Assembly: GCA_013373595.1 (NCBI GenBank)
Contig: JABXHO010000031.1
Coordinates: 1 to 48,057 of the forward strand
DNA: 48,057 nt
Origin: Flavobacteriales bacterium
Lineage (GTDB): Bacteria; Bacteroidota; Bacteroidia; Flavobacteriales_D; Crocinitomicaceae
Reading direction: 5' to 3'
Both the position numbers and the translations under genes were made by a program. Within the stretch, counting starts at the first letter, position 1, and every line of letters begins with the position of its first letter. This document shows, in pieces, positions 20,036 to 43,431 of this stretch. The notes beneath the pieces are model-generated. The model was given only the letters and a program-made list of their open reading frames with translations. It made no database searches and was not told where the DNA came from.

Positions 20036-21463
20036 TCAATTTTTGCGTTTTTTCAAGCGCATCATTTGGAAATAACTCACGTTTGATGCCAATACGAAGT
20101 AGATAAATTTAGGAAGGTTTGTGAGTTTCCCTTTTTTGATTTTCTGGAGCAGTTGTTTTTGTCGGAATCGTCGATGCAGAAAGCGATGTAGCTTTTTGTA
20201 AAACGCAGGTGAGTACGTGCCTTTATACATCAAGAGCAATTCGTCGGAATCTTCCCAGTTTGCTTTCTCTTCTAACTGAGAGGAAACAATGTCGTAGAAT
20301 TTCGTTCCGGGTAAAGGATAAGAAACGGAAACACCAATGTCATGCGGCATCAGCTCGAAAAGCATGTCCAATGTAAGCTGAATGTCTTCCATGGTTTCTC
20401 CGAGGTAGCCAAACTGTAGGAAAAAGCAGGGCTTAATTCCGTGCTCCTTCATCAACCGCGTCGATTCGTAGATTTGTTCTACGTCCGTTCCCTTATCCAT
20501 CGCGTCCAAGATCTTCTGCGAGCCACTTTCGGCTCCAATCCACACTTCGTCACATCCTGATTCTGCCAGTGCTGTGATGGTGTCTTCTTTCAAAAGTAAA
20601 TCCGCACGCGACTGAATTTTGTACTTCAACTCAATATTTTCTTCTTTCAACAGGCGATTGAATTCCTGTACCCAGTTGGGTTTGAGTCCAAAAATGTCAT
20701 CACAAAACCAAATGTGATCGAATTGAAAAAAGGTATGGATGAGCTTAATCTCGGAAACAACATGTTCTGGAGATCGACTATTGTATCGATTTCCGTAAAT
20801 CGGCTTGGCGCACCAATTGCATTTGTATGGACAACCACGCGTTGTTGCCAAGTTGATCGAAAAATAACCGTGTTGACTCCATGCGTTTTGATAATCTTCA
20901 ATCTGAATCAAATCCCAAGCAGGGAGAGGTAGTTCGTCCAAATGTACCATCACCTTTCGAGGCGGAGTGCGTTCACTTTTCGAATCGTTTGAATAAGCGA
21001 GTCCATTAACGGAAGCAACATCGCCATTCGTTTGAATGCATTGAATGAGTTCCAATAAGGTTTGGTCGGCTTCTCCCAATAATACTTCGTCTGCACCTCT
21101 GGAAAGATAACTTTCAAAGTGGTCGGTAGAATCGCTGCTTGAAACAATCACGTGTATGTTGCGTTCCTTTGCAAAAGCGATCATTTCGTACGCCGCCTCT
21201 CTCATCTTCGTGAGGCACATCTTCGTAAGGTAGTTGAATCCATCATCGTAAATCACCAAAACATCGGGTTGCTGGCGATCTAATTCAGGGATAATCTCCG
21301 AAGCAGAACGACGAAAATTGGTATCGAAAAGCGATACGTCAAATCCGTTCTTCCGAAGAAGTGAAGCAGCTTGTATTGTTGCAAGTGGCGGATACGGCTT
21401 GCTTTGTTCCCATTGCTTCTGATCGAAATGCAGAAAATAGCTATGTGTGAAAAGTACATTCAT
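20036..21463 (-). CDS. Cobalamin-binding-type radical SAM protein A
   Basis: A 475-residue class B radical SAM protein. Residues about 1-150 form the B12-binding Rossmann-type domain (KPYPPLATIQAASLLRKNGF, then GADEVLLGEADQTLLELI); the DxHxxG base-on motif is absent, as in most of this class. The radical SAM core begins at TTRGCPYKCNWCAKP, whose CxxxCxxC (C211, C215, C218) holds the 4Fe-4S cluster; DEVWIGAESGSQKILDAMDKG and a GYLGET loop follow. The C-terminal tail is helical and basic. Its start overlaps the stop of the nucleotidyltransferase gene by ATGA. It is a clear paralogue of the protein at 34891-36276. The reaction is unknown; methylation or ring rearrangement at unactivated carbon is typical of the class. 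Confidence 0.88.
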   Translation of the reverse strand: MNVLFTHSYFLHFDQKQWEQSKPYPPLATIQAASLLRKNGFDVSLFDTNFRRSASEIIPELDRQQPDVLVIYDDGFNYLTKMCLTKMREAAYEMIAFAKERNIHVIVSSSDSTDHFESYLSRGADEVLLGEADQTLLELIQCIQTNGDVASVNGLAYSNDSKSERTPPRKVMVHLDELPLPAWDLIQIEDYQNAWSQHGYFSINLATTRGCPYKCNWCAKPIYGNRYNSRSPEHVVSEIKLIHTFFQFDHIWFCDDIFGLKPNWVQEFNRLLKEENIELKYKIQSRADLLLKEDTITALAESGCDEVWIGAESGSQKILDAMDKGTDVEQIYESTRLMKEHGIKPCFFLQFGYLGETMEDIQLTLDMLFELMPHDIGVSVSYPLPGTKFYDIVSSQLEEKANWEDSDELLLMYKGTYSPAFYKKLHRFLHRRFRQKQLLQKIKKGKLTNLPKFIYFVLASNVSYFQMMRLKKRKN

Positions 21464-22350
21464 TTCGTGGGCTCAAAGTTATCAATTCGGGTTTGATATT
21501 CTTGCAAAACCTTGCTTTGGAAATCTCTCGGATGATGTTTCGAAACTCCTCGGTTCGTGCGCATGGTCAATTCAAACTTATCCGCATCAAAGTTTTTGAA
21601 TTTCTGCTGCCAACGCTTGTATGTCTTTTTCATGAAGAATAAGTCTATACGATCGCCAAAGCCACCAAAGAAAAATGATTCGGGGATTTTCTTGAAAGTA
21701 AACCCTTTTTTCGGTTCGAGTGGCAACAATTTGGAGTGCGAAAGTTGTCCTGGAACGAACTCCTGCGTCCAATTGTTTTTTTGCTTTACCTCATTCATGA
21801 GTGCTGAGTTATAGACGGTAATCAGCGATTTGACCTCAATGGCAGTAAAGATGTTTTTATCAATTATTTCCAAGTTGTTTTCATCCACAAAATAATTGAG
21901 ACAAAAGTATTTTCGCGAGTTCAGCAAGAAGACCTTCTTGAAAAGAACCAATAACGTTCGGCAAACCCAAAGGCGATTGGCTGCAGTGATGATGAAATAA
22001 TCAATATCACCATCTTCGGGCATAACATTTTTAGATAATGACCCGGAAATGGCTACGCCTCGAACAAAAGGAAACGCTTTAATTAATCTCAAATAGCGCG
22101 GTAATTTTTGATAATAGCTTTGCGCTCTGTCTTCCTTTTCATTTCGAATCGAAATTTGTTCTGAAATCGTTTCACGAATTCCGTAGAGATCATCCTGGCG
22201 GAAAACAACTCCTTTTTCAATCAATGTTTCCAGAGTGGCATGAATTTTCTTCTCGTCTTCCTCGTGCGCAAGCGCTTTGAGTTCACGCACCGATAAGGGG
22301 TGATTGAACACATCAAAATAACACAAGAAACGAAGTAATTTCAATTCCAT
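21460..22350 (-). CDS. Winged-helix protein with pol-beta nucleotidyltransferase domain
   Basis: About 296 residues. The N terminus (1-70, LLRFLCYFDVFNHPLSVREL ... LIEKGVVFRQDDLYGI) reads as a winged helix. It is followed by GVAISGSLSKNVMPEDGDID, the GS...DxD signature of the pol-beta nucleotidyltransferase fold (about 97-120), and a helical C terminus. The third acidic residue was not located with certainty. ATG 22350 is used; the codon before it is TTG. The gene is coupled by ATGA overlap to the radical SAM gene, so the two should act together, perhaps by nucleotidyl transfer to a glycan precursor, lipid head group or protein. Function is not known to me. Confidence 0.65.
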   Translation of the reverse strand: MELKLLRFLCYFDVFNHPLSVRELKALAHEEDEKKIHATLETLIEKGVVFRQDDLYGIRETISEQISIRNEKEDRAQSYYQKLPRYLRLIKAFPFVRGVAISGSLSKNVMPEDGDIDYFIITAANRLWVCRTLLVLFKKVFLLNSRKYFCLNYFVDENNLEIIDKNIFTAIEVKSLITVYNSALMNEVKQKNNWTQEFVPGQLSHSKLLPLEPKKGFTFKKIPESFFFGGFGDRIDLFFMKKTYKRWQQKFKNFDADKFELTMRTNRGVSKHHPRDFQSKVLQEYQTRIDNFEPTK

Positions 22351-22486
22351 CAAGGAAGGGAAGTTAGATTATTGAATGGCTTAAAATTAGTGAATAAAAT
22401 ACTGGGAATGCTGATCATACGATTTCATGTTTTATCCAATTGCAACAAAAAAGGAGTTTGAAATAGTGGGAGTTACTCCATAATCG

Positions 22487-22499: not shown

Positions 22500-23864
22500 A
22501 TGCCTCAGCTCATAAATAGATCACTCAAATCCATTAAAACGCTTGCCGAAAGAAGTAGGGTGTTTCCCAAGTTTTTTCATTATTTCGCAGCGTCACTATT
22601 GTTGGATTTAGCGTTTTTAGGCATTTCATCGTTTGTCTTTCTTTCTGAGCATTTCTGGGCTTGGATAGCTCTTTTTTGGACGGTTTCCAGCATTTTGAAA
22701 TACCCTCCAATGCGTGACCGACGTTTTGTACGGTATGCTGCGATTTTTAGCTTGACATTAATCCAATTGTTGATTTTTGGAGTGCTTTACACGGGGTTTT
22801 CCAGTCTTGAAATGGAGGTGTGGAGCCGGGAATATTTGATGGATGTACTGGTTCTATTCGGCACCTTGATTTTTAGTAAAATGTTTTTCGTCTACCTCGT
22901 TCGATTGTATCGAAAGTCGGGGTATGGATACAATCGCTTCCTAATGATTGGAAATAGAGAGGAGCTGAAAGTGATAGCGGACTTAATTGAGGATCAGCAA
23001 TACAGCGGCTGTCAGCTTGATGAAATTTTGGAGGCACAGCCATCGATAAAAGAGTTGGAGCGGAGGATTACGGAGAATGCCTTGAATGAGATTTATTGCT
23101 CCGCTGACATCAAGGATTATTTGTGGCTGACAGATGTGCTCAATCTGACGAGTAAGTACGGAGTGAGTTTGTATATCGTTTCCGATGCGAAGCAGTTTCA
23201 GAATTGGCGTTCCATCACGAGTGTCAACCGTGAAGTGTTGCATGGCACGATGCAGTACTTTCCCTTGTTAGATAAGCGAAATATGGTGATCAAGCGTGTG
23301 TTTGATCTTGTGCTTTCGGTTGTCGTGATTTTGGGTGTTTTGTCGTGGTTGATACCGATTTTAGCCATCATTATTCGCTTGGAATCGAAAGGTCCCGTCT
23401 TTTTCCTTCAAGCAAGAGCAGGTCGAGGTGGTGAGTTGTTCAAGTGCATCAAATTCCGTTCAATGCTTCCTTCGAAGCATTTTGTGCAAGCGAAAAAAGG
23501 GGATCAACGCATCACGAAGTTTGGAGCGTTTTTACGTCGAACAAGTTTGGATGAGTTCCCACAATTCTTCAATGTGTTTTTGGGACAGATGTCGATTGTT
23601 GGGCCGCGCCCGCATGTGAAGCAGTTAAATGATAAATTTGTAAACGAAATTCAGAATTACGACGATCGTTTATTGGTGAAACCCGGAATTACAGGACTTT
23701 CTCAAGTGATGGGGTATCGAGGTGAAACCCGCGACTTGGAATCGATGGCCGATCGAATTCGAGTAGATTTGAGCTACATTAAAAATTGGTCGTTGCTGGT
23801 GGATATTAAAATTGTTTTGAAAACGATCACACACGTACTGTTAAAACGAGAGAATGCCTACTAA
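22500..23864 (+). CDS. Polyprenyl-phosphate glycosylphosphotransferase (priming enzyme)
   Basis: A 454-residue membrane enzyme of the WbaP/WcaJ/PglC family that moves a sugar phosphate from a nucleotide sugar to undecaprenyl phosphate, starting lipid-linked glycan assembly. Four or so N-terminal membrane segments (about 25-145) lead into a Rossmann-like central domain (YNRFLMIGNREELKVIADL), then a re-entrant hydrophobic segment (266-290) and the bacterial sugar-transferase domain with KCIKFRSM, the DE catalytic pair (RTSLDEFPQFFNVFLGQM, D351 and E352) and GPRPH. This is the long WbaP-like form. Its stop overlaps the next gene by 11 bp. Sugar specificity cannot be read. Confidence 0.92.
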   Translation: MPQLINRSLKSIKTLAERSRVFPKFFHYFAASLLLDLAFLGISSFVFLSEHFWAWIALFWTVSSILKYPPMRDRRFVRYAAIFSLTLIQLLIFGVLYTGFSSLEMEVWSREYLMDVLVLFGTLIFSKMFFVYLVRLYRKSGYGYNRFLMIGNREELKVIADLIEDQQYSGCQLDEILEAQPSIKELERRITENALNEIYCSADIKDYLWLTDVLNLTSKYGVSLYIVSDAKQFQNWRSITSVNREVLHGTMQYFPLLDKRNMVIKRVFDLVLSVVVILGVLSWLIPILAIIIRLESKGPVFFLQARAGRGGELFKCIKFRSMLPSKHFVQAKKGDQRITKFGAFLRRTSLDEFPQFFNVFLGQMSIVGPRPHVKQLNDKFVNEIQNYDDRLLVKPGITGLSQVMGYRGETRDLESMADRIRVDLSYIKNWSLLVDIKIVLKTITHVLLKRENAY

Positions 23865-24636
23865 AAAAGCGTATTCAAGAGAGGAAGATGTAAAGGTGTT
23901 GGGAATCCCATTTTTTTCGGGAAATGTCGATCGTGCGTGTACATTTGTCTTGGATGGATGCCGTGAAGAAGTCTATGAAAATCGTTGCGTCAGTGCAACG
24001 GGCGCCCACGGAATGGTGATCTCAAAAAAGGATCAAGCCTTCAAGGAAACCTTGTTGAGCTTCTACTTGAATCTTCCAGATGGAATGCCTGGTGTTTGGG
24101 TGGGGAGACGAAAAGGAGCCAAAAACATGGAGCGTTGCTCGGGACCATTGTTTTTTGAGCGATTGATGGCGGCTTCTGCAAATGAAAACGTAACGCACTT
24201 TTTCTGTGGAGGAAAAGAAGGTGTGGCAGACGAATTGAAGAAGTCATGCGAGGAGAAATTCCAGAATTCCAACGTAGTTGGAACCTTTTGTCCCCCTTTC
24301 AAGAAGGTAGATGAATTCGATTATGCGGCAATAGCAGAGGAAATCAATGCGAAGAATCCAGATGTGGTATGGATTGGTTTGAGTACACCGAAACAAGAGG
24401 TGTTTGCCCGAAATTTGGCGAAATTCACAACCGTAAAATACATCGTTACCGTTGGTGCAGCATTCGATTTTCATACAGGAAAGGTCAAAACGGCTCCGAA
24501 ATTTATTCAGAAGATCGGAATGGAATGGTTCTACCGAATGTGTAGTGAACCAAGAAGGCTATTCAAGCGCTATTTTGAGGTGGTACCCAAGTTTATATTT
24601 TATGCAATCGGCGATTTAATGCGGAAGGAGAAGTAG
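23854..24636 (+). CDS. WecG/TagA/CpsF family glycosyltransferase
   Basis: A 260-residue GT26 enzyme that typically adds the second sugar to the lipid-linked primer. VSATGAHGMVISKKD, NLPDGMPGVWVGR (the conserved Asp of the active site), FFCGGKEGVADELKKS, PDVVWIGLSTPKQEVF and VGAAFDFHTGKVKTAPK are family blocks. It is translationally coupled (11-bp overlap) to the priming enzyme, fitting the expected order of reactions. The C-terminal EWFYRMCSEPRRLFKRY is the membrane-associating tail seen in TagA. Convergent with the GT4 gene at 24640, 3 bp away. Confidence 0.92.
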   Translation: MPTKKAYSREEDVKVLGIPFFSGNVDRACTFVLDGCREEVYENRCVSATGAHGMVISKKDQAFKETLLSFYLNLPDGMPGVWVGRRKGAKNMERCSGPLFFERLMAASANENVTHFFCGGKEGVADELKKSCEEKFQNSNVVGTFCPPFKKVDEFDYAAIAEEINAKNPDVVWIGLSTPKQEVFARNLAKFTTVKYIVTVGAAFDFHTGKVKTAPKFIQKIGMEWFYRMCSEPRRLFKRYFEVVPKFIFYAIGDLMRKEK

Positions 24637-24639
24637 GTG

Positions 24640-25800
24640 CTACTTTTTGTTAATCACGGTATTGTAGCAATCCATTAACCTTTCATAGTTTCTTTCTCTA
24701 CTGTACAGCTTTTCAAAATCAGCAAAGGCCGTCTCTGCAATTTTTCTTGACATTTCTTCATTCTTCATTAACAATTGAATGGATGACAGTAATTCATCTG
24801 CCGAATTGGCTTCAAACAAAAGTCCATTCTCTTGGTGCGATATAATCGTTTGCATTGCACCAAGATTACTTGCAACAACAGGTGTTTTGTGAGCAAATGC
24901 TTCCAAAATGGTCATGGGCATGCCTTCATAACAGAGCGATGGGAAAAGGAGTGCTTTTGCTTGTTGGATCAATGTTAATACTTCATCGTGCGGGCGTTTC
25001 CCGAGCAATTCTACCTTTGGCAAGTCGCGAAGTTGTGCTTCCATCGGGCCTTCTCCAACGATCTTCAATGGGATATCCAATTCCTTACTGATTTCCACAA
25101 ACAACTGAATGCCTTTGTTCTCTTCCAATCGCCCAACGTAAATTAAATACGGTTCAATCTTACCTTCGGTAACTTCTGTTGAAGGTGCTTTCACAAAGTT
25201 GGGCTTCACAACCAACTTCTCTTCGGGCAGTCCACTTTCGATAAACTTACTTTTTGCAAATTCGGTAAAGCAGAAATAAGCATCAACGTGTTTCGTCCAT
25301 GTGCGATCGGCTTTGTTCTTTTCAATCATGCGCGCTACAGCGTAAGTCTGCGTATATGAATGGCGATAGCACTTCTTCGGAACGGAATGATAGGCTGACT
25401 TTCCAAGGCATTCTTCGCATACTTTTCCTTCGCGAAGGAACAATCCATTGGTGCAAATGAGTCGGTAATTGTGAAGCGTTTGTACAACGGGCACCTTGGA
25501 ATCTTTACACGCTTTATAGATGGATGGGGAGATGAGCGGTAAGAAGTTGTGCACGTGACATACGTTTGGTCGTGTCAATCGGATCAACTCCATGGCTTCA
25601 TCGTAGGTTTTTTGCGACCAAGTAGTTGAGTACAGCAATCCCATTTTTCGAAAAAAGGAATAGTCATTGATTTCTTCGTTGTGCTTGTAAAATGGAATTA
25701 CTTCATGACCGTTTTCTTCAAGGAGCGCTTTTTCGTTGGCAACAACAGTGTCTTCTCCTCCCGAGAGCTGGTAATAATTATGTACTTGAAGAATTTTCAT
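24640..25800 (-). CDS. Glycosyltransferase family 4
   Basis: A 386-residue GT-B enzyme. MKILQVHNYYQLSGGEDTVV begins the acceptor domain; the frame extends 13 codons upstream, but ATG 25800 overlaps the upstream stop (ATGA) and fits the family start. A Cys cluster (GKVCEECLGKSAYHSVPKKC) follows the LHNYRLICTNGLFLR segment, as in many O-antigen GT4 enzymes, and may bind a metal. The donor domain has YVGRLEENKGI and the EX7E motif near SLCYEGMPMTILEAFA. It is the last gene of the minus-strand operon 24640-30672 and would add a hexose or similar to the growing repeat unit. Confidence 0.9.
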   Translation of the reverse strand: MKILQVHNYYQLSGGEDTVVANEKALLEENGHEVIPFYKHNEEINDYSFFRKMGLLYSTTWSQKTYDEAMELIRLTRPNVCHVHNFLPLISPSIYKACKDSKVPVVQTLHNYRLICTNGLFLREGKVCEECLGKSAYHSVPKKCYRHSYTQTYAVARMIEKNKADRTWTKHVDAYFCFTEFAKSKFIESGLPEEKLVVKPNFVKAPSTEVTEGKIEPYLIYVGRLEENKGIQLFVEISKELDIPLKIVGEGPMEAQLRDLPKVELLGKRPHDEVLTLIQQAKALLFPSLCYEGMPMTILEAFAHKTPVVASNLGAMQTIISHQENGLLFEANSADELLSSIQLLMKNEEMSRKIAETAFADFEKLYSRERNYERLMDCYNTVINKK

Positions 25801-27050
25801 GCAGTTGATTGTGAATGATCCCAAATGCGGGGTGACCAATAAAATAACGAAGAAATGACTAAGAAAAACACGATTCCGTTCTGGCGCAACATCGTGGATT
25901 CGGTGAGACTAAATGCCGCAAACAAGAAGATAAAAGAAAAGAAAACCATGTTTCGGTGGTTGATGGCTCTTCTCGCTAGCACGAATAAAATCAAAACGAA
26001 TAAAAGTGCTGTTGTGATTCCGTTGGTGAGCCAATATTGCAAATACATGTTGTGGGCATTGAAACGATCGTTTGCACCGATGGTAAAACCAAGTTCTTCG
26101 TAGGTCGCAAACAATTCATCGTCGCCGTCACCTGTTCCTTTTCCTATGAATGGCGCTTCTTGGATGGTTTCCCAGGTGCATTCCCAAATAGCCATGCGCA
26201 TGGTGAGCGGTGTAAGGTGATCATCCGACAACTCATATTTTAGTGAGAAAGATTCCAATTTGGATTGAATCCCGATGTAGGAGAAAATGCCAGCGAGAAC
26301 AACAATTGCGGACAGTACTAGTTTCATTTTTAATGATCCGAGGAGTGTTTTTCGATAGCGAAAGAAGACCAAAAGAAGGCTGGCCAACGGAAAAGCAAAA
26401 GCAAAAATGGATGATTTCAACAAGAAGAGCATCACGGCAAAAAAGACGAAAATCAATGCATAGAGAAATTTCGTAGTCATTTTAGCAGACGAGTGCAGTA
26501 TGCGATTGAGTAATATGAGTGCGGCAAAGGAAAGATACAACGAGTAGTAGATTGCGTGCAGTTGCAGAGGAGAGGACAGGCGGTGATGCATAAAATGGTT
26601 GTACACGAAGTGATCTTTTTGAGTAGCAGTGTACACGGTTCCCGTCGTGAGGTAGTGATTCGTTGCTACACCTAAACAAATCAATGCAGTGATAACTCCT
26701 GTGGCGATAAATACATTCATGATCGCTTCTTTCTGTTTTGAGCTAAACTGCTTAATGGATGCTGCTAGAATCGGGACGCCGATTAGTGCGTAGTGTCGCT
26801 CGATGATCCCCCAGCCGTCCTTCGTGTTTTGAGTGTATATCATCCCGACGAGGAGAAGAAGAAAGAGCACAGGATAAAGAATCAATCCTGAATAACCTTT
26901 GAAAGCATGTTTTTTCTGGATGAACTTCACGATGGTCAACAAGACTAAAAAGACCAAGGCAAATCCCATGGCATTCCCAGGAAGAAAAAAGGAAATCATC
27001 AGCAGGCAGTAGCCCCAAAACTCGATATCTGTCAACTTGATGCTACGCAT
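25797..27050 (-). CDS. O-antigen ligase/polymerase-type membrane protein (copy 2)
   Basis: A 417-residue integral membrane protein with about ten to twelve hydrophobic segments (e.g. MGFALVFLVLLTIVKFI, GLILYPVLFLLLLVGMIYT). It has a large periplasmic loop near residues 285-345 carrying FIGKGTGDGDD and RFNAHNMYLQYWLTNGI, the Wzy/WaaL family signature. It either polymerises repeat units or ligates the glycan to lipid A. It overlaps the upstream homologue by 8 bp and the GT4 gene by 4 bp. Two such proteins side by side suggest one polymerase and one ligase, or two glycans. Confidence 0.85.
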   Translation of the reverse strand: MRSIKLTDIEFWGYCLLMISFFLPGNAMGFALVFLVLLTIVKFIQKKHAFKGYSGLILYPVLFLLLLVGMIYTQNTKDGWGIIERHYALIGVPILAASIKQFSSKQKEAIMNVFIATGVITALICLGVATNHYLTTGTVYTATQKDHFVYNHFMHHRLSSPLQLHAIYYSLYLSFAALILLNRILHSSAKMTTKFLYALIFVFFAVMLFLLKSSIFAFAFPLASLLLVFFRYRKTLLGSLKMKLVLSAIVVLAGIFSYIGIQSKLESFSLKYELSDDHLTPLTMRMAIWECTWETIQEAPFIGKGTGDGDDELFATYEELGFTIGANDRFNAHNMYLQYWLTNGITTALLFVLILFVLARRAINHRNMVFFSFIFLFAAFSLTESTMLRQNGIVFFLVISSLFYWSPRIWDHSQSTA

Positions 27051-28317
27051 CTACTGTTTGTTTAGGTTCATCGGAGAAAAAGCGCCAACGATAAATCAGA
27101 AATCCGATGCACGGCCAGTATATGGCCATGTCAAAAATGGGAATGGTAATACCAATGGTCAGCAGTGGAATAATGGTCATGGCGAAAAAGAATTTACCAT
27201 TATCTACCGAACTTTTCCAATGCTTCACCTTCTGGTAAATGCGTCGTGCTCCCCACACAAAAAAGGCGATTCCTGCAATTCCTGCATTCACAAATAAACT
27301 AAGAATGGCGTTGTGTGCATCGTAGGCTTCGTGCAAAACGGGGTCAATTCTGAGTAAATAATAATTGTCTGGTGAGGCGTATTCCTTGAAGAGTTCTTGT
27401 CCAGATCCCATGCCTGATCCAAAGAGGTAATTCCACACGGAGTAATCGGCAATGGCATCCGAATAAATGTTCCAAATCGATCCTCTTCCAGTAAGCAATT
27501 GAGGAGGAAAGTAATAACCTGTTTGCTGGTAAACGCCGTGAAGAAAGCTCAAAACAACGCCTGAAACAACAATCAATAAGATGGCGGTGTAGCCTAAAAG
27601 TTGTTTTTTGGAGAGCAGTTTTAGTTGTGAAAAGGTGCGATTCATCAAGAAAAGTTGATAGAAGAACAGGATGATAACAGCGCCAAGAAGTGCCTTGTAC
27701 AAGGTTAATTTTGCAATAGCAACGAAAATTAAGAGCATCCAAAAGGCATTCGACCCTTTCTTGAAGAATTGAAAGAGCGCGAGGAAAAAGATGATGATTG
27801 CCAATTCTGATCCGTGGTACAAAAAGCCGTTCGGTCGAGGAAGACGCGTACCATCTGCAAAATACGCCCAGTTGATGTAATCGGCATTCCAGAAGGTGAT
27901 TGGCATTACGCCCAAGGCTTGTAACACACCAATCAAAACGGGAATCCATAAATAACTAATGAATCGGCGTTGGTACTTTTCGAGCGTAGCTTGCGCGAGC
28001 CGTTGGTTGAAAAGTAGGTCGAGTAACACGTATAGAACCAAGGGGCCAAAGAGAATGTCAATGGTATTTTTGATGCTCGGGTGAGGCATGAAATACTGCA
28101 GCAATCCTATGGTTAACGTAAGGTAGAGAACCCATCTTTTTTTAGGATGAAGCGCCAAAAGCATCAGCATCGCAACGAAAATCAATCCAAAGGCGATGAA
28201 GTGAACTTTGATCGGGAAGGGCGGAACAACATTTCCCAAAATGATGAACAGGGGCGTCAGGCAGATCAACTCCAAAAAGGCAATCATCAACGATCGTTCT
28301 ATTCCGCTCGCCTTCAT
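27043..28317 (-). CDS. O-antigen polymerase/ligase-type membrane protein (copy 1)
   Basis: A 424-residue Wzy/WaaL-like protein with many membrane segments (LICLTPLFIILGNVVPPFPI, AIIIFFLALFQFF, AVIILFFYQLFLM). The large periplasmic loop contains LLTGRGSIWNIYSDAIADYS, NYLFGSGMGSG and AYDAHNAILSLFVNAGI, a typical set of O-antigen ligase family residues (Arg and His). It lies between the flippase and the second polymerase/ligase, with 4- and 8-bp overlaps. Which of the two is polymerase cannot be decided from sequence. Confidence 0.87.
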   Translation of the reverse strand: MKASGIERSLMIAFLELICLTPLFIILGNVVPPFPIKVHFIAFGLIFVAMLMLLALHPKKRWVLYLTLTIGLLQYFMPHPSIKNTIDILFGPLVLYVLLDLLFNQRLAQATLEKYQRRFISYLWIPVLIGVLQALGVMPITFWNADYINWAYFADGTRLPRPNGFLYHGSELAIIIFFLALFQFFKKGSNAFWMLLIFVAIAKLTLYKALLGAVIILFFYQLFLMNRTFSQLKLLSKKQLLGYTAILLIVVSGVVLSFLHGVYQQTGYYFPPQLLTGRGSIWNIYSDAIADYSVWNYLFGSGMGSGQELFKEYASPDNYYLLRIDPVLHEAYDAHNAILSLFVNAGIAGIAFFVWGARRIYQKVKHWKSSVDNGKFFFAMTIIPLLTIGITIPIFDMAIYWPCIGFLIYRWRFFSDEPKQTVDA

Positions 28318-30702: not shown

Positions 30703-30744
30703 GCTTTCTGTAACATTTTGACAAAATTTCCGCCAGATCGCTCC

Positions 30745-34107: not shown

Positions 34108-34111
34108 AGAG

Positions 34112-34894
34112 ATGGGAAGGCAGCAAGCACCATTTGATCAGGCAGCATCCGCTTACGACGAAACCTTTACGGATAGTACTATTGGGAAAGAACAGCGAAA
34201 ACGCGTATATCATTGGCTCAACCAAGCGAATTTTCCAAAAAAAGGACAGCGAATTTTTGAAATCAACTGCGGAACGGGTGCTGATGCAGCGTATTTCCAT
34301 CAAAAGGGAATAAAAATTAAGGCTACGGATGGTTCGCCAGAGATGATTGAAGTGGCACGGTCTTCCAGAGATCAAGCGATTGATTTCAGCGTGTTGGATT
34401 TTTCTAAAGTGGATCAAACAACGATTATCGGTGAAGCGATTTTTTCCAATTTTGGTGGATTGAACTGTCTGAGTGAAATAGAACTGAAGCAATTGTTTCA
34501 ACGTATTTCCGTGGCTCAAAATTCAGGCGACCTTTTGGCAGTAGTGATTATGCCGAGGTTTTGTTTCATGGAGGGGTTGTATTTTTTTACACGATTGAAA
34601 TGGAGCAAATTATTCCGTAGGAATACATCGAAAGGATTGCCTGTAAATGTCGACGGAAAAGATGTGCTAACTTATTATCATTCACCTCGTGCCGTCCAGA
34701 AAATGCTACCCGATTATTCCATTCAATTGAAAAAACCAGTGGCGATTTGCTTGCCACCTTCTTATTTGGAACCGTTTTTTGCTAAACGTCCACGTTTTTT
34801 GAAGCTTTTGAGTGCATTAGAAAAGAACCTTGGTCGGATTTCCTTATTTTCGGGATGGAGCGATCACTATATATTGATTGCAGAGAAAAAATGA
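34112..34894 (+). CDS. Class I SAM-dependent methyltransferase
   Basis: A 260-residue methyltransferase. QAASAYDETFTDSTIGKEQR resembles the UbiE/Methyltransf_25 opening, FEINCGTGADAAYFHQKGIK is the SAM-binding motif I (Glu in place of one usual residue), KATDGSPEMIEVARS binds the ribose, and IFSNFGGLNCLSEIELKQLF is motif IV-like. ATG 34112, four bases after the upstream stop, is preferred to the in-frame GTG at 34097. Its stop overlaps the next radical SAM gene by ATGA. A sugar O- or N-methyl decoration is plausible in this operon but not shown. Confidence 0.85.
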   Translation: MGRQQAPFDQAASAYDETFTDSTIGKEQRKRVYHWLNQANFPKKGQRIFEINCGTGADAAYFHQKGIKIKATDGSPEMIEVARSSRDQAIDFSVLDFSKVDQTTIIGEAIFSNFGGLNCLSEIELKQLFQRISVAQNSGDLLAVVIMPRFCFMEGLYFFTRLKWSKLFRRNTSKGLPVNVDGKDVLTYYHSPRAVQKMLPDYSIQLKKPVAICLPPSYLEPFFAKRPRFLKLLSALEKNLGRISLFSGWSDHYILIAEKK

Positions 34895-36276: not shown

Positions 36277-37370
36277 AGCGGTCGAACCTCGTGCGGATGG
36301 ATAATGCGTTTTTGCCGTTTTATTGGCTCACAAAGCAGTTGAAGTCAATCGCGCCGAGAAGAAATCAAACAAGCCATCAGGTCGTTATTCTTAAACTTTT
36401 TGGGGTTGGTAGCATCACGCGAATTGCACATGTCTTGCAGAATTCAAAGGTTGAAAAGAAGGCGGTTTTTCTCACTTTGAAACGAAACAAAGGCGTTGTT
36501 GATTTACTCGGTTTAGAGGCAATCTATATCAATGATAAAAATCCGTTCGTACTTCTTTTCAGTGCTATGCAACGTGTCGTTACGATCTGGCAGCTGCGAA
36601 AAGCGGAGATTGTCGATATGGAACGTTCTTCGAATATGGCGGGAATGTACAGTTTGATCCTTTCGATCCGAAAAAAACATGCACAGTTCAAAGTGGAAGG
36701 TGAGAATGTGGAAAAGAAAAATAGACGAATCATTTCGCTTGAAAAAAAGGCTGCCACATCTGGAATTGCAGAGATGCTTCATGCAGAACCGTTGGTGTGG
36801 GAAGATACGCCCGTTCAATCCAAATCCATAAAGAGAATTGTTATCAATATCAACGCGGGTGGTTATCTACCTGAACGGAAGTTCCCAATGGAGAAATGGT
36901 CGCAGTTGATAAAAGGTTTGGCGGAATTGTTTCCAGAAGGAGTTTTCTACTTCAGTGGCTTGGAAAGTGAAAGAAAAGGAGTTGAGGCTTTTTGCAAGAG
37001 AATAGCTGCATTCTTACCAACTTCGAGGTGTACGGTATTGGCGGGTGAGCAAAGTTTACCGTCGTTTGTTGATTTTCTGAAAGCATCGGATTTATTTTTA
37101 ACAAATGATTCGGGGCCACTGCATTTGGCACGCTATTTTGGCGTTCGAACGGTGGCGATTTGGGGACCAACGTCGAGTTATTTGGTGGGATATCCAAATT
37201 CTGCGCGGATGCTCAATCTCTCTCATGAACTTGCATGTTCGCCTTGTTTCATAAGTCCGAAATCTGAGGTGGCCAAAGCGTGTAATGGAAAGCTTTCATG
37301 TTTTCATGAGATGGATGTAGAAAAGAATTTATTGAAGATAAATGAGTTTGTGAACAACGGTAATCAATGA
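36273..37370 (+). CDS. Glycosyltransferase family 9 (heptosyltransferase-like)
   Basis: A 365-residue GT-B enzyme. VVILKLFGVGSITRIAHVLQ matches the N-terminal GT9 motif (normally K..GxGD; here the Asp is Ser), and LFLTNDSGPLHLARYFGVRT with VAIWGPTS is the conserved donor-binding block. ACSPCFISPKSEVAKACNGKLSCFHEM has the Cys-rich segment common at the end of GT9. The family adds heptoses in LPS cores and other sugars in surface glycans. ATGA overlaps on both sides couple it to radical SAM proteins B and C. Confidence 0.88.
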   Translation: MKRSNLVRMDNAFLPFYWLTKQLKSIAPRRNQTSHQVVILKLFGVGSITRIAHVLQNSKVEKKAVFLTLKRNKGVVDLLGLEAIYINDKNPFVLLFSAMQRVVTIWQLRKAEIVDMERSSNMAGMYSLILSIRKKHAQFKVEGENVEKKNRRIISLEKKAATSGIAEMLHAEPLVWEDTPVQSKSIKRIVININAGGYLPERKFPMEKWSQLIKGLAELFPEGVFYFSGLESERKGVEAFCKRIAAFLPTSRCTVLAGEQSLPSFVDFLKASDLFLTNDSGPLHLARYFGVRTVAIWGPTSSYLVGYPNSARMLNLSHELACSPCFISPKSEVAKACNGKLSCFHEMDVEKNLLKINEFVNNGNQ

Positions 37371-38797
37371 TGGAAAAGACGAAAATAGTGCTGTTTAATC
37401 CTCCTGGAGGTAAGATTTACATCCGCGATTACTATTGCTCGAAGGTTTCGAAAGCTTATTACTATCCACAACCAGTTGATTTGTTGATGCAGTCGGCGTA
37501 TTTCTCAGAAGATAAGTACGAGCTGACGGTAATTGATGCGATTGCTGAAAAGAAAACGATAGATGAGGTGCTGGAGGAAGTCAAAGGCATTCAGCCCGAG
37601 CTAATCATTGGACTTCTAGGTTCTGTGAGCTTAGAAGAAGATCTTGCAGCATACCGAAAGTTGAAGGAGGTGCTTCCTGAGGTCAAAATTGCCTGTTCGG
37701 GTGATGCGCTTTTGGATAACTACGAGCAAAAATTAAACGACTATGCGTGGCTCGATGTGATCATCACCAACTTCTATATTGATGGAACCAGACAATGGTT
37801 TGAAGCGTTGAATACACCTGTTGATTCCGAAATTACTTTTCGTGGAATTGCTTACTTGAAGGAGGATTCTGGGCAATTTATCTTCGATCCTGGGAAAATA
37901 TCTGGGAAATTGGAGATTCCTGTTCCAAAGCAAGCGACATTCACGGGAAACTACCGCATGCCTTTTGCGAATGCTGAGCCTGTGGCAACCGTTTTGACGA
38001 ATTATGCGTGCCCTTATCCTTGTACGTTTTGCATCATGTCGACTTTGCCCTATGCGACAAGAACAGCTGGATCCATCATTGAAGAATTGAAATACTTGAA
38101 ACGAAACGGTTATCGATTTATCTATTTTTCAGATCAAACGTTTTTTCAATCAAAGGCCATTACGCGTGAGGTGTTGAACTGGATGATTTCAGAAAATTAT
38201 GGAATCAATTGGATGTGCTTTTCTCGTGTAGATGTTGTAGATGAAGATGATTTGAAGCTGATGAAAGCTGCTGGTTGCAAGTTGATTATGTTCGGCGTTG
38301 AATGGGCAGATAACGAACGACTGGAGAAATACAAAAAGCATTATTCGATCGATCAAATCCGAAGCACGTTTGCGAAAAGCAAGGAGCTTGGCATCAAACG
38401 ATTGGGAACATTTTTAATTGGTGTGCCCGGACAAACGAAGGAATCCATTTTAAGCACGGTTCGCTTTGCAAAGGAAATTGATGCAGATTACGCATCGTTC
38501 AATGTGGCGGTGCCGCGGAGTCAGACGTCTTTTCGTGAAGAAGCCTTGGAAATGGGGTTGATTGATGAGTCGGTCGAAGTGATGGATCAGTCGGGGGATG
38601 TAGTGGTTATGGGGAATGGTGTGTTGACAAAAGATGAATTGCACTTACTCAAACGAAAAGCATACCGAAGCTTTTATTTTCGTCCTGGCTATTTGCTGAA
38701 ACGTTTGTTCTCGATTCGCTCGTGGACAGAGCTGAAATTTCATTTGATTGAGGGGACGCATGTGTTTAAATCCATTCTGCGAAAACAAGAGGAATGA
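37367..38797 (+). CDS. Cobalamin-binding-type radical SAM protein C
   Basis: A 476-residue protein of the same class as A and B but a separate lineage. MMEKTKIVLFNPPGGKIYIR begins the B12-binding-type domain; the radical SAM cluster motif is NYACPYPCTFCIM (C215, C219, C222), with FIYFSDQTFFQSK, CKLIMFGVEWADNERLEKYK and LIGVPGQTKESIL following. The long C-terminal extension ends in hydrophobic/basic helices, possibly membrane-associated. It overlaps GT9 and GT87 genes by 4 bp each. ATG 37370 is an equally good start. The reaction is unknown. Confidence 0.88.
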   Translation: MMEKTKIVLFNPPGGKIYIRDYYCSKVSKAYYYPQPVDLLMQSAYFSEDKYELTVIDAIAEKKTIDEVLEEVKGIQPELIIGLLGSVSLEEDLAAYRKLKEVLPEVKIACSGDALLDNYEQKLNDYAWLDVIITNFYIDGTRQWFEALNTPVDSEITFRGIAYLKEDSGQFIFDPGKISGKLEIPVPKQATFTGNYRMPFANAEPVATVLTNYACPYPCTFCIMSTLPYATRTAGSIIEELKYLKRNGYRFIYFSDQTFFQSKAITREVLNWMISENYGINWMCFSRVDVVDEDDLKLMKAAGCKLIMFGVEWADNERLEKYKKHYSIDQIRSTFAKSKELGIKRLGTFLIGVPGQTKESILSTVRFAKEIDADYASFNVAVPRSQTSFREEALEMGLIDESVEVMDQSGDVVVMGNGVLTKDELHLLKRKAYRSFYFRPGYLLKRLFSIRSWTELKFHLIEGTHVFKSILRKQEE

Positions 38798-40023
38798 AAA
38801 AGAACTGGAAGATATTTGTTGCGCTCTGGTTGATGTTGGTCGCGTTCGTTTTGTTTTACAAAGGCATTCGCCCGGGCTGGAACGATACAAAAACGGATTT
38901 CAATAATTATTATGCTTCCGCAAAATTGATCCAGAAGGGAGAATCGATTCACGCATTTTATTCAAATGATCGTTTCAAGGAGATGGCGCAATCGGTAGCT
39001 GTAAAAAATGGAGCGAAATTTTCACCGTTTCCACCGCCTACAGCAGTTTTGTACTGGCCACTAAGCTTCTTTGATTTGTTAACTGCTAAGCGGATTTGGT
39101 TGGTCTTCAATATGCTTTTGTTGGTGTGGTTGCCGTTCAGGATGAAGCGTTATTTTCGTTCGTCGGTGTGGAAGAATGCATTAATGTTGAGTTTGTTTGT
39201 TATTCCGCTTTCGTCGAACCTTCATTTTGGTCAGTTTTACTTCGTAACAGCGTTTGTGTTGGTGGAAGCAATAGGTCATTTTCGGGTGACGAAAAAGTCG
39301 ATGCTTTCGAGTGTGCTCATTGGAGTATTGGCGAGTGTCAAGTATGTTCCAATCTTGTTTTTAGGCTATTTGATGAGATTTTCAAAAGAGTCGATGAAGC
39401 CTATTTTTACGGCTATAGCAACTCTTTTGGTGATTACGGGCATCTTTGTGTTGATTGATTTTGAGGCCTATGGAGTGTATTTGCGCGATCTTGGTGGACA
39501 CGTAAATGGTGACTTGTCTGGACAAGGGAAATATGCCATTGGTTTTCAATCGTTGGATGCCTTGTTTAATAATCTGTTTGTGGCAGATGCAGTCGAAAAT
39601 CCAAAGCCGTTCTTCGAGGCGGAGTGGTTAAAACCTGTGTTGAAATGGATGATTGTTGCAGTAGTGGGAGTGGCGTGCTTTCTCATGCTGAGAAAGGAAA
39701 AATATGCGTTTTCACCGTCGACGGTTTCTGTTGGAATTATTGGAGCGTTCGTCTTAATTCCCGCGAGTGCGTCGTATCATTTTTTATTGTTGATTCTTCC
39801 GATCTTTTTCATCCTTAGGTGGTTGGTTAAAGAACGATCAGTTGGTCATTTTCTAATAGCAATCGCTCTCATTTTTGGTGCATTTTCGATTCAGGCATAC
39901 CAAATTCCGAGTGTGGAGCAGTGGCCTTTTGCTGATCTTTTGATTCATTTTCCGAGGTTGTGGCTTATAGTGGCTTTATTCTCATTCTTGGTGTACTGCA
40001 AGCAAAGCGTTAAAAATAGCTAG
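38794..40023 (+). CDS. GT87-like polyprenol-phosphate-dependent mannosyltransferase
   Basis: A 409-residue multi-pass membrane protein of the GT-C fold (formerly DUF2029). After the first membrane segment it has DTKTDFNNYYASAKLIQKGE, whose Asp in the first periplasmic loop is the expected catalytic base, and KFSPFPPPTAVLYWPLSFFD, a family block; about ten membrane segments follow. Family members use polyprenyl-phosphate mannose and act on the periplasmic face, so it may decorate the glycan after flipping. Last gene of the operon 30745-40023; convergent with the lipoprotein gene, 5 bp away. Confidence 0.85.
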   Translation: MKKNWKIFVALWLMLVAFVLFYKGIRPGWNDTKTDFNNYYASAKLIQKGESIHAFYSNDRFKEMAQSVAVKNGAKFSPFPPPTAVLYWPLSFFDLLTAKRIWLVFNMLLLVWLPFRMKRYFRSSVWKNALMLSLFVIPLSSNLHFGQFYFVTAFVLVEAIGHFRVTKKSMLSSVLIGVLASVKYVPILFLGYLMRFSKESMKPIFTAIATLLVITGIFVLIDFEAYGVYLRDLGGHVNGDLSGQGKYAIGFQSLDALFNNLFVADAVENPKPFFEAEWLKPVLKWMIVAVVGVACFLMLRKEKYAFSPSTVSVGIIGAFVLIPASASYHFLLLILPIFFILRWLVKERSVGHFLIAIALIFGAFSIQAYQIPSVEQWPFADLLIHFPRLWLIVALFSFLVYCKQSVKNS

Positions 40024-40028
40024 GCGTT

Positions 40029-41174
40029 TTAATCCAGCCAATTGACTTCAATACCAATGCGTTCTCGAACACTACTCGAAACCCCGAGCGGGGTGTGTGG
40101 AGCCAATGCTTCTACATCTTTTCGGTGGTAAAGCTCTCCTAAAAAGGTGAATTCTTCTTGTTGATGTGTCGGCAATCCAGAAAGTAAGGTGAGGACTTCC
40201 GTTTCAGATATTTTCCATTCCAACGCAAGTCGAGAAGCAGATGGTTCCATGTATGATATATAAAGTAGTTCCATTAAAACATGTCCTTGAAAGTCGGTAA
40301 AATCTACGCCATTAAAGAGAAGGTTTTGCTTCTCTTTGTGTCTCAGTCGGAAATGAATCAAGGTGTCTGCCATTTCGTTGGGAGATAAATAGCCTGCCTG
40401 AAGCGTTTGCGAACTTAGTAATGGTTGGATACTTGATTCGTGGCACCACATGCATTTCCCAGGCTTTCCAGCGCTTGAAACACCTGGAAAAGCACCAATT
40501 ATTCGGTTTCCAGATGGATCGTAAATACCAAATCGAGGTTGACCATTTGGGAGTAAATCAAGGGTTTCGAATTCCAATATTTCACCTGTTACGGAATCAA
40601 TTTCTTGGGAAATGAATAGTTGCGAAAGCCCACTTTGACTCGAAAATAGAATTTCGCGATGCTCTTCAGAAATGGCGGAGTTTGAAATGTATCCAATAGC
40701 TGGATCAAGCGTGTATTGATTTTGAAGCTCAGATAGCTGATCGGGGAGGTTGATCAACTGGTAATAATGTTCGGATGATCCGAGAATCAAAGCAACGTAA
40801 TGTCCAATGTCTGTGTATCCGTTTGAATTATACGCAATGGATTCCTGTATGGCACGATGCAGTTTTTTGAGTGTCTGTTTGCTTTGATGTGGTATTGATA
40901 ATGCATTTGGATCGATGCTGATAGTTTCTTTTTCGTATGAAATCCAGTCGTCGAGAATGCGTTTTTCGACACCAATTTGAGAGAGTGCCCAATTAAGACC
41001 TGTGATGGATTTTTCAAATGAGTCATCGCTATAGGATCTGTGCCATTTTAAGATGACGACCTCGTTGTGGTAAAGTTGAGTCTTGTCTCGATTACATCCT
41101 GAAATTAGGACGAGTAGACCAACGAGTAAAGTGCTGGTGAATACGAGGTGTTTCTTATAATTGTTTGAGCGCAC
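40029..41174 (-). CDS. Lipoprotein with a CxxCH haem-binding motif
   Basis: A 381-residue exported protein of no family I recognise. The N terminus is a lipoprotein signal (LLVGLLVLISGC, lipid-bearing C27). One CxxCH lies at 241-245 (GKPGKCMWCHESSIQPLL), followed by a region of helices. This fits covalent attachment of a single c-type haem, with distant methionine candidates at 268 or 290 as second ligand. The start is GTG 41174; an in-frame TAG two codons upstream rules out a longer form. TAACTTTA on the minus strand just upstream may be its -7 box, which would leave almost no leader. It is a single gene opposed to the two glycan operons around it. Confidence 0.7.
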   Translation of the reverse strand: MRSNNYKKHLVFTSTLLVGLLVLISGCNRDKTQLYHNEVVILKWHRSYSDDSFEKSITGLNWALSQIGVEKRILDDWISYEKETISIDPNALSIPHQSKQTLKKLHRAIQESIAYNSNGYTDIGHYVALILGSSEHYYQLINLPDQLSELQNQYTLDPAIGYISNSAISEEHREILFSSQSGLSQLFISQEIDSVTGEILEFETLDLLPNGQPRFGIYDPSGNRIIGAFPGVSSAGKPGKCMWCHESSIQPLLSSQTLQAGYLSPNEMADTLIHFRLRHKEKQNLLFNGVDFTDFQGHVLMELLYISYMEPSASRLALEWKISETEVLTLLSGLPTHQQEEFTFLGELYHRKDVEALAPHTPLGVSSSVRERIGIEVNWLD

Positions 41175-41232: not shown

Positions 41233-41244
41233 AGCCTAAAGGCT
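41233..41244 (+). promoter_or_regulatory. Small hairpin in the leader of radical SAM D
   Basis: AGCC (41233-41236) and GGCT (41241-41244) can pair around TAAA at the very 5' end of the predicted transcript, 8 nt before the ATG. It may stabilise the message or mask the ribosome site. Confidence 0.35.
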
Positions 41245-41251
41245 ATACAAT

Positions 41252-42775
41252 ATGACGAGTCAGAAAAAATCCGAAATCATACTTTTTAACCCGCGAAGTG
41301 CTAAGTGGAAACACCGCGTTCCAAATTCCATTTTGCAGGTAGGAGCGTCCATTTTTGGAAAGTATCTTTTCGACTTTGTGGATGGGAACTTGGAAGAAGA
41401 TCCTTGGGCTGTCATTGAATCAAAGTTGAAAACGGGAAACTACAAATATTTCGGTGCTACTGTAATGCCCGGTCCTCAGTTGAAGGAAGCGATTCCGTTT
41501 AGTAAACGAATTCGAGAGCAATTCCCCGAGGTGAAGATTATTTGGGGAGGCTATTTTGCGGCTAATCAGTACAAGGTTGTGTTGGGAAGTGGTTATGTGG
41601 ATTATGTCATTAACGGTCCTGGAGATATCGCTTTTCCTTCTTTGTTAGACGCGTTAGAAAACAATGAGCCACTTGATGGAATAAAAAATTTGATTTACAA
41701 AAAGGACGGCCAGATTGTAAAAACAGCACTGGAAGCTTTGTTGAATCAAGATGAATTGCCTCAATTGCCGTATTCCTATTTGGATTCATTTTACCCTTTG
41801 CAAAATTATCTTGCGAAGACCTTTATGGGAAATAAAACAATGGCATACCATTCAAGTATGGGGTGCCCTTTTACGTGCTCGTTTTGTGCGGTTGTTCCAA
41901 TTTACAACGCGCGATGGAAAGGGAAGTCAGCTGAGAAAATTTATCAGGATGTCAAATGGTTGAAGGAGAAATATGGCGTGGATTCCATTGAGTTTCATGA
42001 TAATAACTTTTTCACTTCTCGAAAGCGTGTTGTTGAGTTTTCCAAACTGATGCGCAACGAAAACATGAAGTGGTGGGGAGAAGGTCGAATTGATACCATT
42101 GATAAATACTCAGACGATGATCTCAAATTGATGAGTGAGGCTGGTTGTTGCATGATTTTCTTAGGTGCTGAAACAGGAAGCGATGAGGTGTTGAAGCAAA
42201 TGGATAAAGGTGGAACGCAGTCGTCTAAGCAGATTTTAGATTTCGCGGTACGCATGCGTAAGTTTGATATTGTACCCGAGTATTCGTTTGTGTTGGGCTT
42301 GCCTGGAGAATCTAAGGAGAAAGTAATGGCGCAAATTGATGCGGATATCGCTTTTATTAAAAAGGTGAAGAAGCTCAATCCTGATACGGAGATTATCATT
42401 TATTTATACAGCCCAGTTCCTACGGAAGGTTCCGAGTTGTACGAACAAATTACGAAGGCAGGATTTGAGTTTCCAGAAGATTTGGAAGATTGGTTGAATC
42501 CTTCTTGGGAAAATTTTGACCTTCGAAAGAATCCATTGACTCCTTGGCTCACGCCGAAAATGATCAATAAAATCAAGAACTTTGAAACGGTACTCAATGG
42601 GTACTACCCAACGAATTCAGATTTTCGAATCAAGGGGGCAAAAAGGTCTGTTTTGCGTCTGAGTTCATGGTGGAGATACAAGTCTGGAATATACAATCTT
42701 CCCTACGAGATCAAGGTGCTTCACAAGGTTTGGAAGTATCGTCAGCCTGAAACCGAAGGTTTTTACAGCGAGTAA
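41252..42775 (+). CDS. Cobalamin-binding-type radical SAM protein D
   Basis: A 507-residue class B radical SAM protein. EIILFNPRSAKWKHRVPNSI and KIIWGGYFAANQYKVVLGSG belong to the B12-binding-type domain; the cluster motif is SSMGCPFTCSFCAVVP (C205, C209, C212), then SIEFHDNNFFTSRKRVVEF, CMIFLGAETGSDEVLKQMDK and VLGLPGESKE. It is distinct from A, B and C. The C-terminal part (about 430-507) is rich in Trp and Tyr (LSSWWRYKSGIYNLPYEIKV). The TAATG junction couples it to the following methyltransferase. The substrate is unknown. Confidence 0.88.
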   Translation: MTSQKKSEIILFNPRSAKWKHRVPNSILQVGASIFGKYLFDFVDGNLEEDPWAVIESKLKTGNYKYFGATVMPGPQLKEAIPFSKRIREQFPEVKIIWGGYFAANQYKVVLGSGYVDYVINGPGDIAFPSLLDALENNEPLDGIKNLIYKKDGQIVKTALEALLNQDELPQLPYSYLDSFYPLQNYLAKTFMGNKTMAYHSSMGCPFTCSFCAVVPIYNARWKGKSAEKIYQDVKWLKEKYGVDSIEFHDNNFFTSRKRVVEFSKLMRNENMKWWGEGRIDTIDKYSDDDLKLMSEAGCCMIFLGAETGSDEVLKQMDKGGTQSSKQILDFAVRMRKFDIVPEYSFVLGLPGESKEKVMAQIDADIAFIKKVKKLNPDTEIIIYLYSPVPTEGSELYEQITKAGFEFPEDLEDWLNPSWENFDLRKNPLTPWLTPKMINKIKNFETVLNGYYPTNSDFRIKGAKRSVLRLSSWWRYKSGIYNLPYEIKVLHKVWKYRQPETEGFYSE

Positions 42776-43431
42776 TGAAGTGGTTTCGTAAGCGCATTAT
42801 ATCACCAATTCTCCAACGTTTTGTTCGTTTCTATTTTAAAAAAGAACGGAAGTTTCACTATGGTTCGATAAAAGCGGTGGTGTTGCCGGGTGTTTTCTTT
42901 CCTCATTTTACGCTGAGTACGCGCTTTTTGATGTCGTTTCTGGAACATCAAGATTTAAATGGAATGTCGTTTTTAGAGTTGGGTTGCGGAACGGGTATGA
43001 TTAGCGCGTTGGCGGCAAAAAAAGGAGCGAAAGTCTTGGCAACGGATATCAACCCCAAGGCGCTCGAAAATGCGAAGCGAAACGCTGATCTAAATCAGGT
43101 GAAGCTTGAAACCTTACATTCGGATTTGTTTAAGCAGATTCCTTCTCAGCAATTCGACTTCATCGTGATTAATCCTCCATATTATCCAAAACAACCGAAC
43201 AATGATGCAGAGAAGGCATGGTTTTGTGGTGAGAATTTTGAATATTTCGAAAAGCTTTTTTCTACACTGAAACCGTATGTTCAGGTTGATTCAAAGGTGC
43301 TAATGGTGCTTTCGGAAGATTGCGAACTGGCAAAAATTCAATCCATAGCTCAACGGAATGGCTTTAAGTTCTTGAAGAAAGTGGAAAAGAAAATTCGAGG
43401 GGAGCGAAATTATATCTTTCAGATTGTCTAG
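42775..43431 (+). CDS. SAM-dependent methyltransferase with NPPY motif
   Basis: A 218-residue class I methyltransferase. SFLELGCGTGMISALAAKKG is SAM motif I, VLATDINPKALENAKRNADL motif II, and FDFIVINPPYYPKQP contains NPPY, the signature of enzymes that methylate a planar nitrogen (PrmC, RlmG and similar). The N terminus carries a short basic helix. Its start shares the A of the TAA stop of radical SAM D (TAATG), so both proteins should be made together. Whether it modifies a protein, RNA or the same small molecule as protein D is open. Confidence 0.82.
   Translation: MKWFRKRIISPILQRFVRFYFKKERKFHYGSIKAVVLPGVFFPHFTLSTRFLMSFLEHQDLNGMSFLELGCGTGMISALAAKKGAKVLATDINPKALENAKRNADLNQVKLETLHSDLFKQIPSQQFDFIVINPPYYPKQPNNDAEKAWFCGENFEYFEKLFSTLKPYVQVDSKVLMVLSEDCELAKIQSIAQRNGFKFLKKVEKKIRGERNYIFQIV

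Follow-up and report, generated by a model that had tools for sequence, protein, structure and literature searches.

Radical SAM proteins and their partners in the window

Here we describe a gene cassette of radical S-adenosylmethionine (SAM) proteins (RS), methyltransferases (MT) and a putative nucleotidyltransferase-fold protein (NT), found in a 48,057-nucleotide stretch from a Flavobacteriales bacterium of the family Crocinitomicaceae (assembly GCA_013373595.1, contig JABXHO010000031.1, positions 1 to 48,057; hereafter the window) and recurring across Bacteroidota. Its core is formed by RS1 (20036-21463, minus strand), a B12-fold radical SAM protein with a Radical_SAM match of 84.8 bits, NT (21460-22353, minus strand), which appears to combine a winged helix with a nucleotidyltransferase-like fold, and MT1 (34112-34894, plus strand), a class I methyltransferase (PF13649, 32.4 bits). 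On the plus strand lie also the radical SAM/SPASM protein RS2 (33031-34107; Radical_SAM 60.8 bits, SPASM 32.2 bits), the B12-binding radical SAM protein RS3 (34891-36276; Radical_SAM 80.5 bits, B12-binding 54.3 bits), which is a paralogue of RS1, the HpnJ-like RS4 (37367-38797; TIGR03471 166.7 bits over residues 27-473), the B12-fold radical SAM protein RS5 (41252-42775; Radical_SAM 60.5 bits) and the small class I methyltransferase MT2 (42775-43431; PF05175 71.2 bits), which overlaps RS5 by 1 bp, while the minus strand carries h381 (40029-41174), which resembles a lipoprotein and has one CxxCH motif. Our analysis bears out an earlier note made from the letters of the window, which had described four B12-fold radical SAM proteins (RS1, RS3, RS4 and RS5), one of the SPASM kind (RS2) and a pair of class I methyltransferases, most of them joined by short overlaps to glycosyltransferase, flippase or methyltransferase genes.

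All five radical SAM proteins exceeded the 29.5-bit Radical_SAM cut-off, and the three cysteines of the CxxxCxxC motif were invariant in the alignments of each of them (e.g., C211, C215 and C218 of RS1 in 12/12 aligned proteins). The Pfam B12-binding domain was above its cut-off in RS3 and below it in RS1, RS4 and RS5. The host genome encodes 21 radical SAM matches in all, including these five. The B12 domain of MetH was matched in each of the 16 RS1-positive genomes described below, which were the genomes searched for it; this suggests at most that these cells use cobalamin. NCBIfam searches with the radical SAM proteins and methyltransferases returned generic matches far below the cut-offs that named no substrate, and the PDB matches of MT1 were likewise assorted methyltransferases that named none.

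Structure comparison (Foldseek, library pdb_via) placed the predicted RS1 model, with its apparent B12-binding fold and two long C-terminal helices, close to AprD4, MgmA, OxsB and TsrM, the score against AprD4 being the best by about 1 Z unit. AprD4 is the sugar-acting radical diol dehydratase of apramycin biosynthesis, whose reductase partner is AprD3, but RS1 is only 18% identical to it, and all scores against the AprD4 family model (NF033070, cut-off 500) remained low (RS1 88.5, RS3 84.8, RS4 82.7 and RS5 51.2 bits). The same holds for the HpnJ model TIGR03471 (cut-off 577.6), against which RS1, RS3 and RS5 scored 134.0, 129.6 and 118.3 bits, below RS4. In sequence, the cassette proteins are only distantly similar to the cobalamin-dependent OxsB, TsrM, CysS and TokK and to the methylase MgmA. 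The best PDB sequence match of RS2 (E 2.5e-8) was the cytosylglucuronate decarboxylase BlsE, which acts on a sugar nucleoside; the match covers residues 63-189 only, and the corresponding model TIGR04466 gave 38.7 bits against a cut-off of 400. In the NT model, an N-terminal winged helix precedes a core resembling the aminoglycoside nucleotidyltransferase ANT(4') at 14-16% identity. NT differs from ANT(4') by this added domain, and at the level of sequence neither Pfam nor the PDB offers a match to it: no Pfam or NCBIfam family was above cut-off, and a profile run against PDB sequences found nothing convincing. Residues G104, S105, D116, D118 and D157 were nevertheless invariant in 11/11 aligned proteins and fit the pattern hG[GS]...Dh[DE]h, which we take to be that of polymerase-beta-type nucleotidyltransferases; D157 may be read as the third catalytic carboxylate.

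Conservation of the cassette across Bacteroidota

Using one fixed set of 198 Bacteroidota genomes, the window's own included, we searched with profiles of the cassette proteins (E-value thresholds of 1e-20 for NT, 1e-80 for RS1 and 1e-100 for RS5). The NT and RS1 profiles each matched 16 genomes, and these were the identical 16, belonging to 15 genera and comprising the window's own, with the two genes at most 4.5 kb apart in every case. The weakest NT matches (7e-24 and 4e-27) and the weakest RS1 match (3e-128) all passed their thresholds, and RS3-type proteins of three of the same 16 genomes matched the RS1 profile at 1e-98 to 3e-110. The naive chance of drawing two identical sets of 16 out of 198 is about 7e-24, a figure that assumes independence between genomes, an assumption that does not hold. 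The MT1 profile matched 18 genomes, among them all 16 NT/RS1 genomes, at a distance to RS1 of no more than 6.2 kb in 15 of these and of 12.6 kb in the window; in the two extra genomes, MT1 was the only gene of the cassette seen within the stretches fetched. RS5 was found in 10 genomes, every one among the 16, and is separated from RS1 by up to 7.5 kb in nine of them and by 19.8 kb in the window. One locus (L137, genome G219) encodes RS1 and MT1 as a single protein of 727 aa behind NT, and RS5 was found neither in the stretch fetched nor in that genome at E 1e-100. NT, RS1 and MT1 are therefore the smallest set seen, and the natural fusion of the latter two speaks for a substrate common to both.

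Relatives of RS1 were also sought beyond this sample. A contig search matched at least 590 stretches, of which at least 577 encode RS1 relatives, and the best 80 of these were analysed by BLAST against the window proteins; many of these loci are truncated where a contig ends, and the contigs of four (L047, L048, L049 and L065) had already entered our alignments. They are labelled mostly as Chitinophagaceae, Mucilaginibacter and unclassified Bacteroidetes, with Niastella, Dyadobacter, Aureispira and others, and a few come from metagenome-assembled genomes (MAGs) labelled Verrucomicrobia (L050), Ignavibacteriaceae (L075 and L089) and Thermoanaerobaculia (L088), labels that can err. MT1 was matched in 72 of the 80 loci, NT in 68, RS5 in 58, SPASM proteins in 40, MT2 in 32 and RS3 in 20. 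Gene order differs among loci, and a layout common in Mucilaginibacter runs from an ATP-binding cassette (ABC) exporter over two GT4 glycosyltransferases (GTs), an amidohydrolase, a methyltransferase, RS5, a methyltransferase, a SPASM protein, RS1, MT1 and NT to a Wzy protein and further GTs. The amidohydrolase of this layout is deaminase-like (L085:1292-2437 and relatives), is encoded next to a methyltransferase in the vicinity of RS5 at many loci of Chitinophagaceae and Mucilaginibacter, and is present in 26/80. Pairwise distances correlated with those of RS1 for NT (rho 0.78, 81 loci), RS5 (0.71, 65 loci), MT1 (0.56, 84 loci), RS3 (0.46, 22 loci) and a neighbouring GT4 family (0.84, 34 loci), and were low between NT and RS3 (0.29, 20 loci) and between RS5 and another GT4 family (0.19, 29 loci); vertical descent alone could account for part of these correlations. 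A plasmid-borne cassette was also considered and set aside, as a tblastn search of RS1 against PLSDB, which covers plasmids alone, gave no match at E 1e-30.

Within the window's family (120 genomes), RS3 occurred in 12 genomes, each also with an RS1-type paralogue 32-36% identical to it, and RS4 in five, namely the window's own and four of genus g12, in which the layout of RS4 with the glycosyltransferases GT9 and GT87 recurs (L030, L032, L034 and L037). Six further family loci (L040-L045), half of which belong to the same genus as the window, share the order NT, RS1, MT1, RS3, a third methyltransferase family, a GT4 and a GT-C (PMT_2-like) transferase, followed by RS5 where the stretch reaches. 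Additional genes were observed beside these family cassettes: an arylsulfotransferase-like protein near RS5 in four of them (L044:14440-15975, with relatives in L040, L042 and L045), a further B12-fold-type radical SAM gene at L043:1-1125 (HpnJ model 125.6 bits, below cut-off) and another at L041:16639-18054, with Radical_SAM and B12-binding above cut-off. The h381 protein adjoins several cassettes, and its CxxCH motif, which is c-type haem-like, was present in 10/10 proteins compared.

Altogether, the core of the cassette is NT, RS1 and MT1, frequently joined by RS5 with a partner methyltransferase, by RS3 and by a SPASM radical SAM protein. We left RS2 outside the shared core because its window-type clade and the Mucilaginibacter-type SPASM clade are only 20-22% identical, and RS4 and h381 because each was found in 1/198 phylum genomes, the window's own; RS4 is a local addition. 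The proteins listed in the earlier note belong to a conserved set, with the correction that RS4 is not part of what is widespread and that NT, a core gene, was missing from the list. In the open-licence literature, as far as titles and the beginnings of abstracts go, we found no description of such a cassette.

Association with glycan assembly genes

The association of the cassette with glycan genes was examined with profiles for eight classes of glycan-assembly genes, built from the neighbours of cassettes and from the window itself, in 20 kb fetched around each cassette (two stretches were shorter) and in 20 control regions, 16 of them from the genomes of the 15 cassette loci and 4 from two same-family cassette carriers. 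Glycan-assembly genes were found at 12/15 cassette loci, 10 of them with at least two matches, versus 2/20 controls (Fisher p 5e-5, with genomes treated as independent, which they are not). The co-occurrence that the earlier note had proposed to score in Bacteroidota is thus observed and, given 12/15 versus 2/20, the homologues are not mostly located away from glycan genes. The remaining three loci (L137, L139 and L140, the last carrying RS1 and NT) showed no glycan gene of these eight classes in the 20 kb fetched, and a concentrative nucleoside transporter lies close to the cassette in one of them (L139:17893-19251). Among the 80 RS1 loci, glycan genes, counted here by gene clusters alone, occurred in 61, and in 42 of the 51 loci of at least 18 kb; some of the nine misses among these longer loci carry weaker Wzx, Wzy or GT matches. 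WzyA was matched in 25 of the 80, WcaJ in 24 and an ABC exporter in 27, many of the latter in Mucilaginibacter and Chitinophagaceae. As an example, NT, RS1 and MT1 of Mucilaginibacter pedocola TBZ30 (L094) are located among GT, deacetylase and Wzy genes. The main text on this strain reports exopolysaccharide (EPS) production by aniline blue staining, lists EPS genes and does not contain the word 'radical' (PMC6260751); this is a hint at a phenotype, the EPS and the cassette sharing the strain alone.

The glycan genes of the window fall into two parts. The initiating enzyme of a Wzx/Wzy-type locus is represented by a WcaJ-type polyprenyl glycosylphosphotransferase (22500-23864, plus; TIGR03025 334.8 bits, cut-off 295.55), followed by a WecG/TagA/CpsF glycosyltransferase (23854-24636, plus; PF03808 177.1 bits). 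On the minus strand lie GT4a, a GT4 glycosyltransferase (24640-25839; PF00534 104.4 bits), and a Wzy/O-antigen-ligase-like protein (25797-27050; PF04932 69.9 bits, cut-off 31.7) that qualifies as a Wzy polymerase by a model which also holds ligases, then a weaker second Wzy/ligase-like protein (27043-28317; 29.1 bits, below the same cut-off), the Wzx-like membrane protein Wzx1 (28314-29639; 11 hydrophobic segments; NF041503 18.2 bits, E 0.001, cut-off 300) and a protein (29632-30672) that is called Wzz-like from its position and its two hydrophobic segments and has no reliable match in Pfam or NCBIfam. The region 22500-30672 looks like a separate, more ordinary Wzx/Wzy-type polysaccharide locus, which the split cassette flanks on both sides. 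The plus-strand run of 30718-40023 has its own set: GT4b, a GT4 glycosyltransferase (30718-31857; PF00534 92.4 bits), the putative flippase-like membrane protein Wzx2 (31854-33059; 9 hydrophobic segments) adjoining RS2, then MT1, RS3, the heptosyltransferase-type GT9 (36273-37370; PF01075 61.4 bits), RS4 and the GT-C transferase GT87 (38794-40023; PF09594 73.6 bits), all on the plus strand. Hydrophobic segments come from a simple hydropathy count; no model was above cut-off for Wzx1 or Wzx2, Wzx2 was without any Pfam or NCBIfam match, and MatE was matched by 2/13 proteins of the combined Wzx2/Wzx1 set.

The window thus shares WcaJ, WecG, Wzy_C and GT4 genes with Wzx/Wzy-dependent polysaccharide loci, but the cassette also occurs at loci where no Wzx/Wzy was detected, those of congeners included. 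The six family loci L040-L045 gave none by BLAST against the window proteins, several open reading frames there being without annotation, and exporters of the ABC type are found at other loci, as counted above. The placement in a Wzx/Wzy glycan locus given by the earlier note therefore stands as a link between a conserved gene set and glycan assembly, and not as a feature of Wzx/Wzy loci as such.

Elsewhere in the window, the genes of two polymerases, one of the DnaE type (8787-11885) and one of the Y family (11932-13194), adjoin (8787-13194), a pair which, with names taken from sequence reading, presumably resembles an error-prone repair pair; the RS1 locus L107 also has matches to both polymerases. 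A predicted secreted protein of 1087 residues is encoded at 1786-5049, and its C-terminal end bears what we take to be a likeness to a type IX secretion sorting domain.

Possible product and pathway of the cassette

Our results suggest, with a probability of roughly 60%, that this portable tailoring cassette supplies a surface glycan or glycolipid with an unusual unit, either a sugar or a glycolipid. This reading relies on the co-occurrence of NT, RS1 and MT1, on the fused RS1-MT1 protein and on the enrichment of glycan-assembly genes at cassette loci, as well as on the likeness of RS1 to AprD4, of the NT core to ANT(4') and of RS4 to HpnJ. In such a pathway, NT would place a nucleotide on a hydroxyl of a sugar-like substrate, thereby activating or protecting it; the 5'-deoxyadenosyl radical of RS1 would then abstract a hydrogen, so that the substrate would be C-methylated, deoxygenated or rearranged, and MT1 would methylate the same substrate. 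A second radical and methyl round may be carried out by RS5 with MT2, or in relatives by RS5 with another methyltransferase and the amidohydrolase, while RS2, RS3 and RS4 might vary the product, and the glycosyltransferases together with Wzx2 or an ABC exporter would assemble and export the unit. The stricter proposal, that NT-RS1-MT1 is an obligate module in which nucleotidylation of a sugar hydroxyl, radical C-methylation or deoxygenation and a methyl cap follow one another, is tentative and on balance doubtful.

Alternatively, the product could be a small molecule or a modified lipid that is merely glycosylated or exported by its neighbours and stays outside the surface polysaccharide, which we regard as unlikely. 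The locus L139 is in line with this, as it combines NT, RS1, MT1, RS5, two more methyltransferases, an amidohydrolase and a SPASM protein with a nearby nucleoside transporter and no detected glycan gene, and so do L137, with NT and the fusion protein in the absence of RS5, and the ABC exporters at 27/80 loci. However, most sample loci carry glycan-assembly genes, generally two or more, and none of the 40 neighbour proteins put through Pfam was a polyketide or peptide synthase.

Less probable still, and to us quite improbable, is that the radical SAM proteins modify a lipid anchor (polyprenyl or a lipid of the membrane) in the way that HpnJ, HpnP and HpnR act on hopanoids. To our knowledge, the HpnI-HpnK-HpnJ pathway of the bacteriohopanetetrol (BHT) cyclitol ether includes neither NT nor a paired methyltransferase. 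That pathway likewise joins a glycosyltransferase with a radical SAM protein on a lipid-linked sugar, HpnJ completing the lipid-linked cyclitol ether from BHT glucosamine (PMC12583986). The full-length likeness of RS4 to HpnJ, the ranking of HpnJ or BchE in the first two places of the NCBIfam results for RS1 and RS5, and the two C-terminal helices of the RS1 model are in line with an anchor as substrate, but all family scores are far below the cut-offs. Hopanoid-anchor tailoring was rejected as the leading explanation since squalene-hopene cyclase (PF13243) had no match in the host genome (G000) and, among the 16 positive genomes, had any match in two and a match above cut-off in one.

Finally, the radical SAM genes could be unrelated and have accumulated through gene shuffling in an otherwise ordinary Wzx/Wzy locus, without forming a joint pathway. 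The rare and local RS4 and h381 and the variable gene order would agree with this, but such chance gathering is highly improbable and was rejected in view of the exact match between NT and RS1, accompanied by MT1, across 16/198 genomes, of the accompanying RS5 and of the RS1-MT1 fusion.

Radical SAM enzymes can alter carbons that are beyond the reach of ordinary glycan enzymes, and a set of radical SAM, methyltransferase and nucleotidyltransferase genes with exact co-occurrence in a sample of the phylum, mostly next to genes of glycan assembly, would hint at surface sugars or glycolipids of a class that could escape standard glycan analysis. The cassette represents a small and testable gene set, some hosts of which are cultured type strains, one being a reported exopolysaccharide maker. 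If the proposal of an NT-RS1-MT1 module is true, this module would add a new radical route by which surface sugars are diversified, one that occurs here and there in Bacteroidota and, provided that the MAG labels hold, also in a few other phyla.

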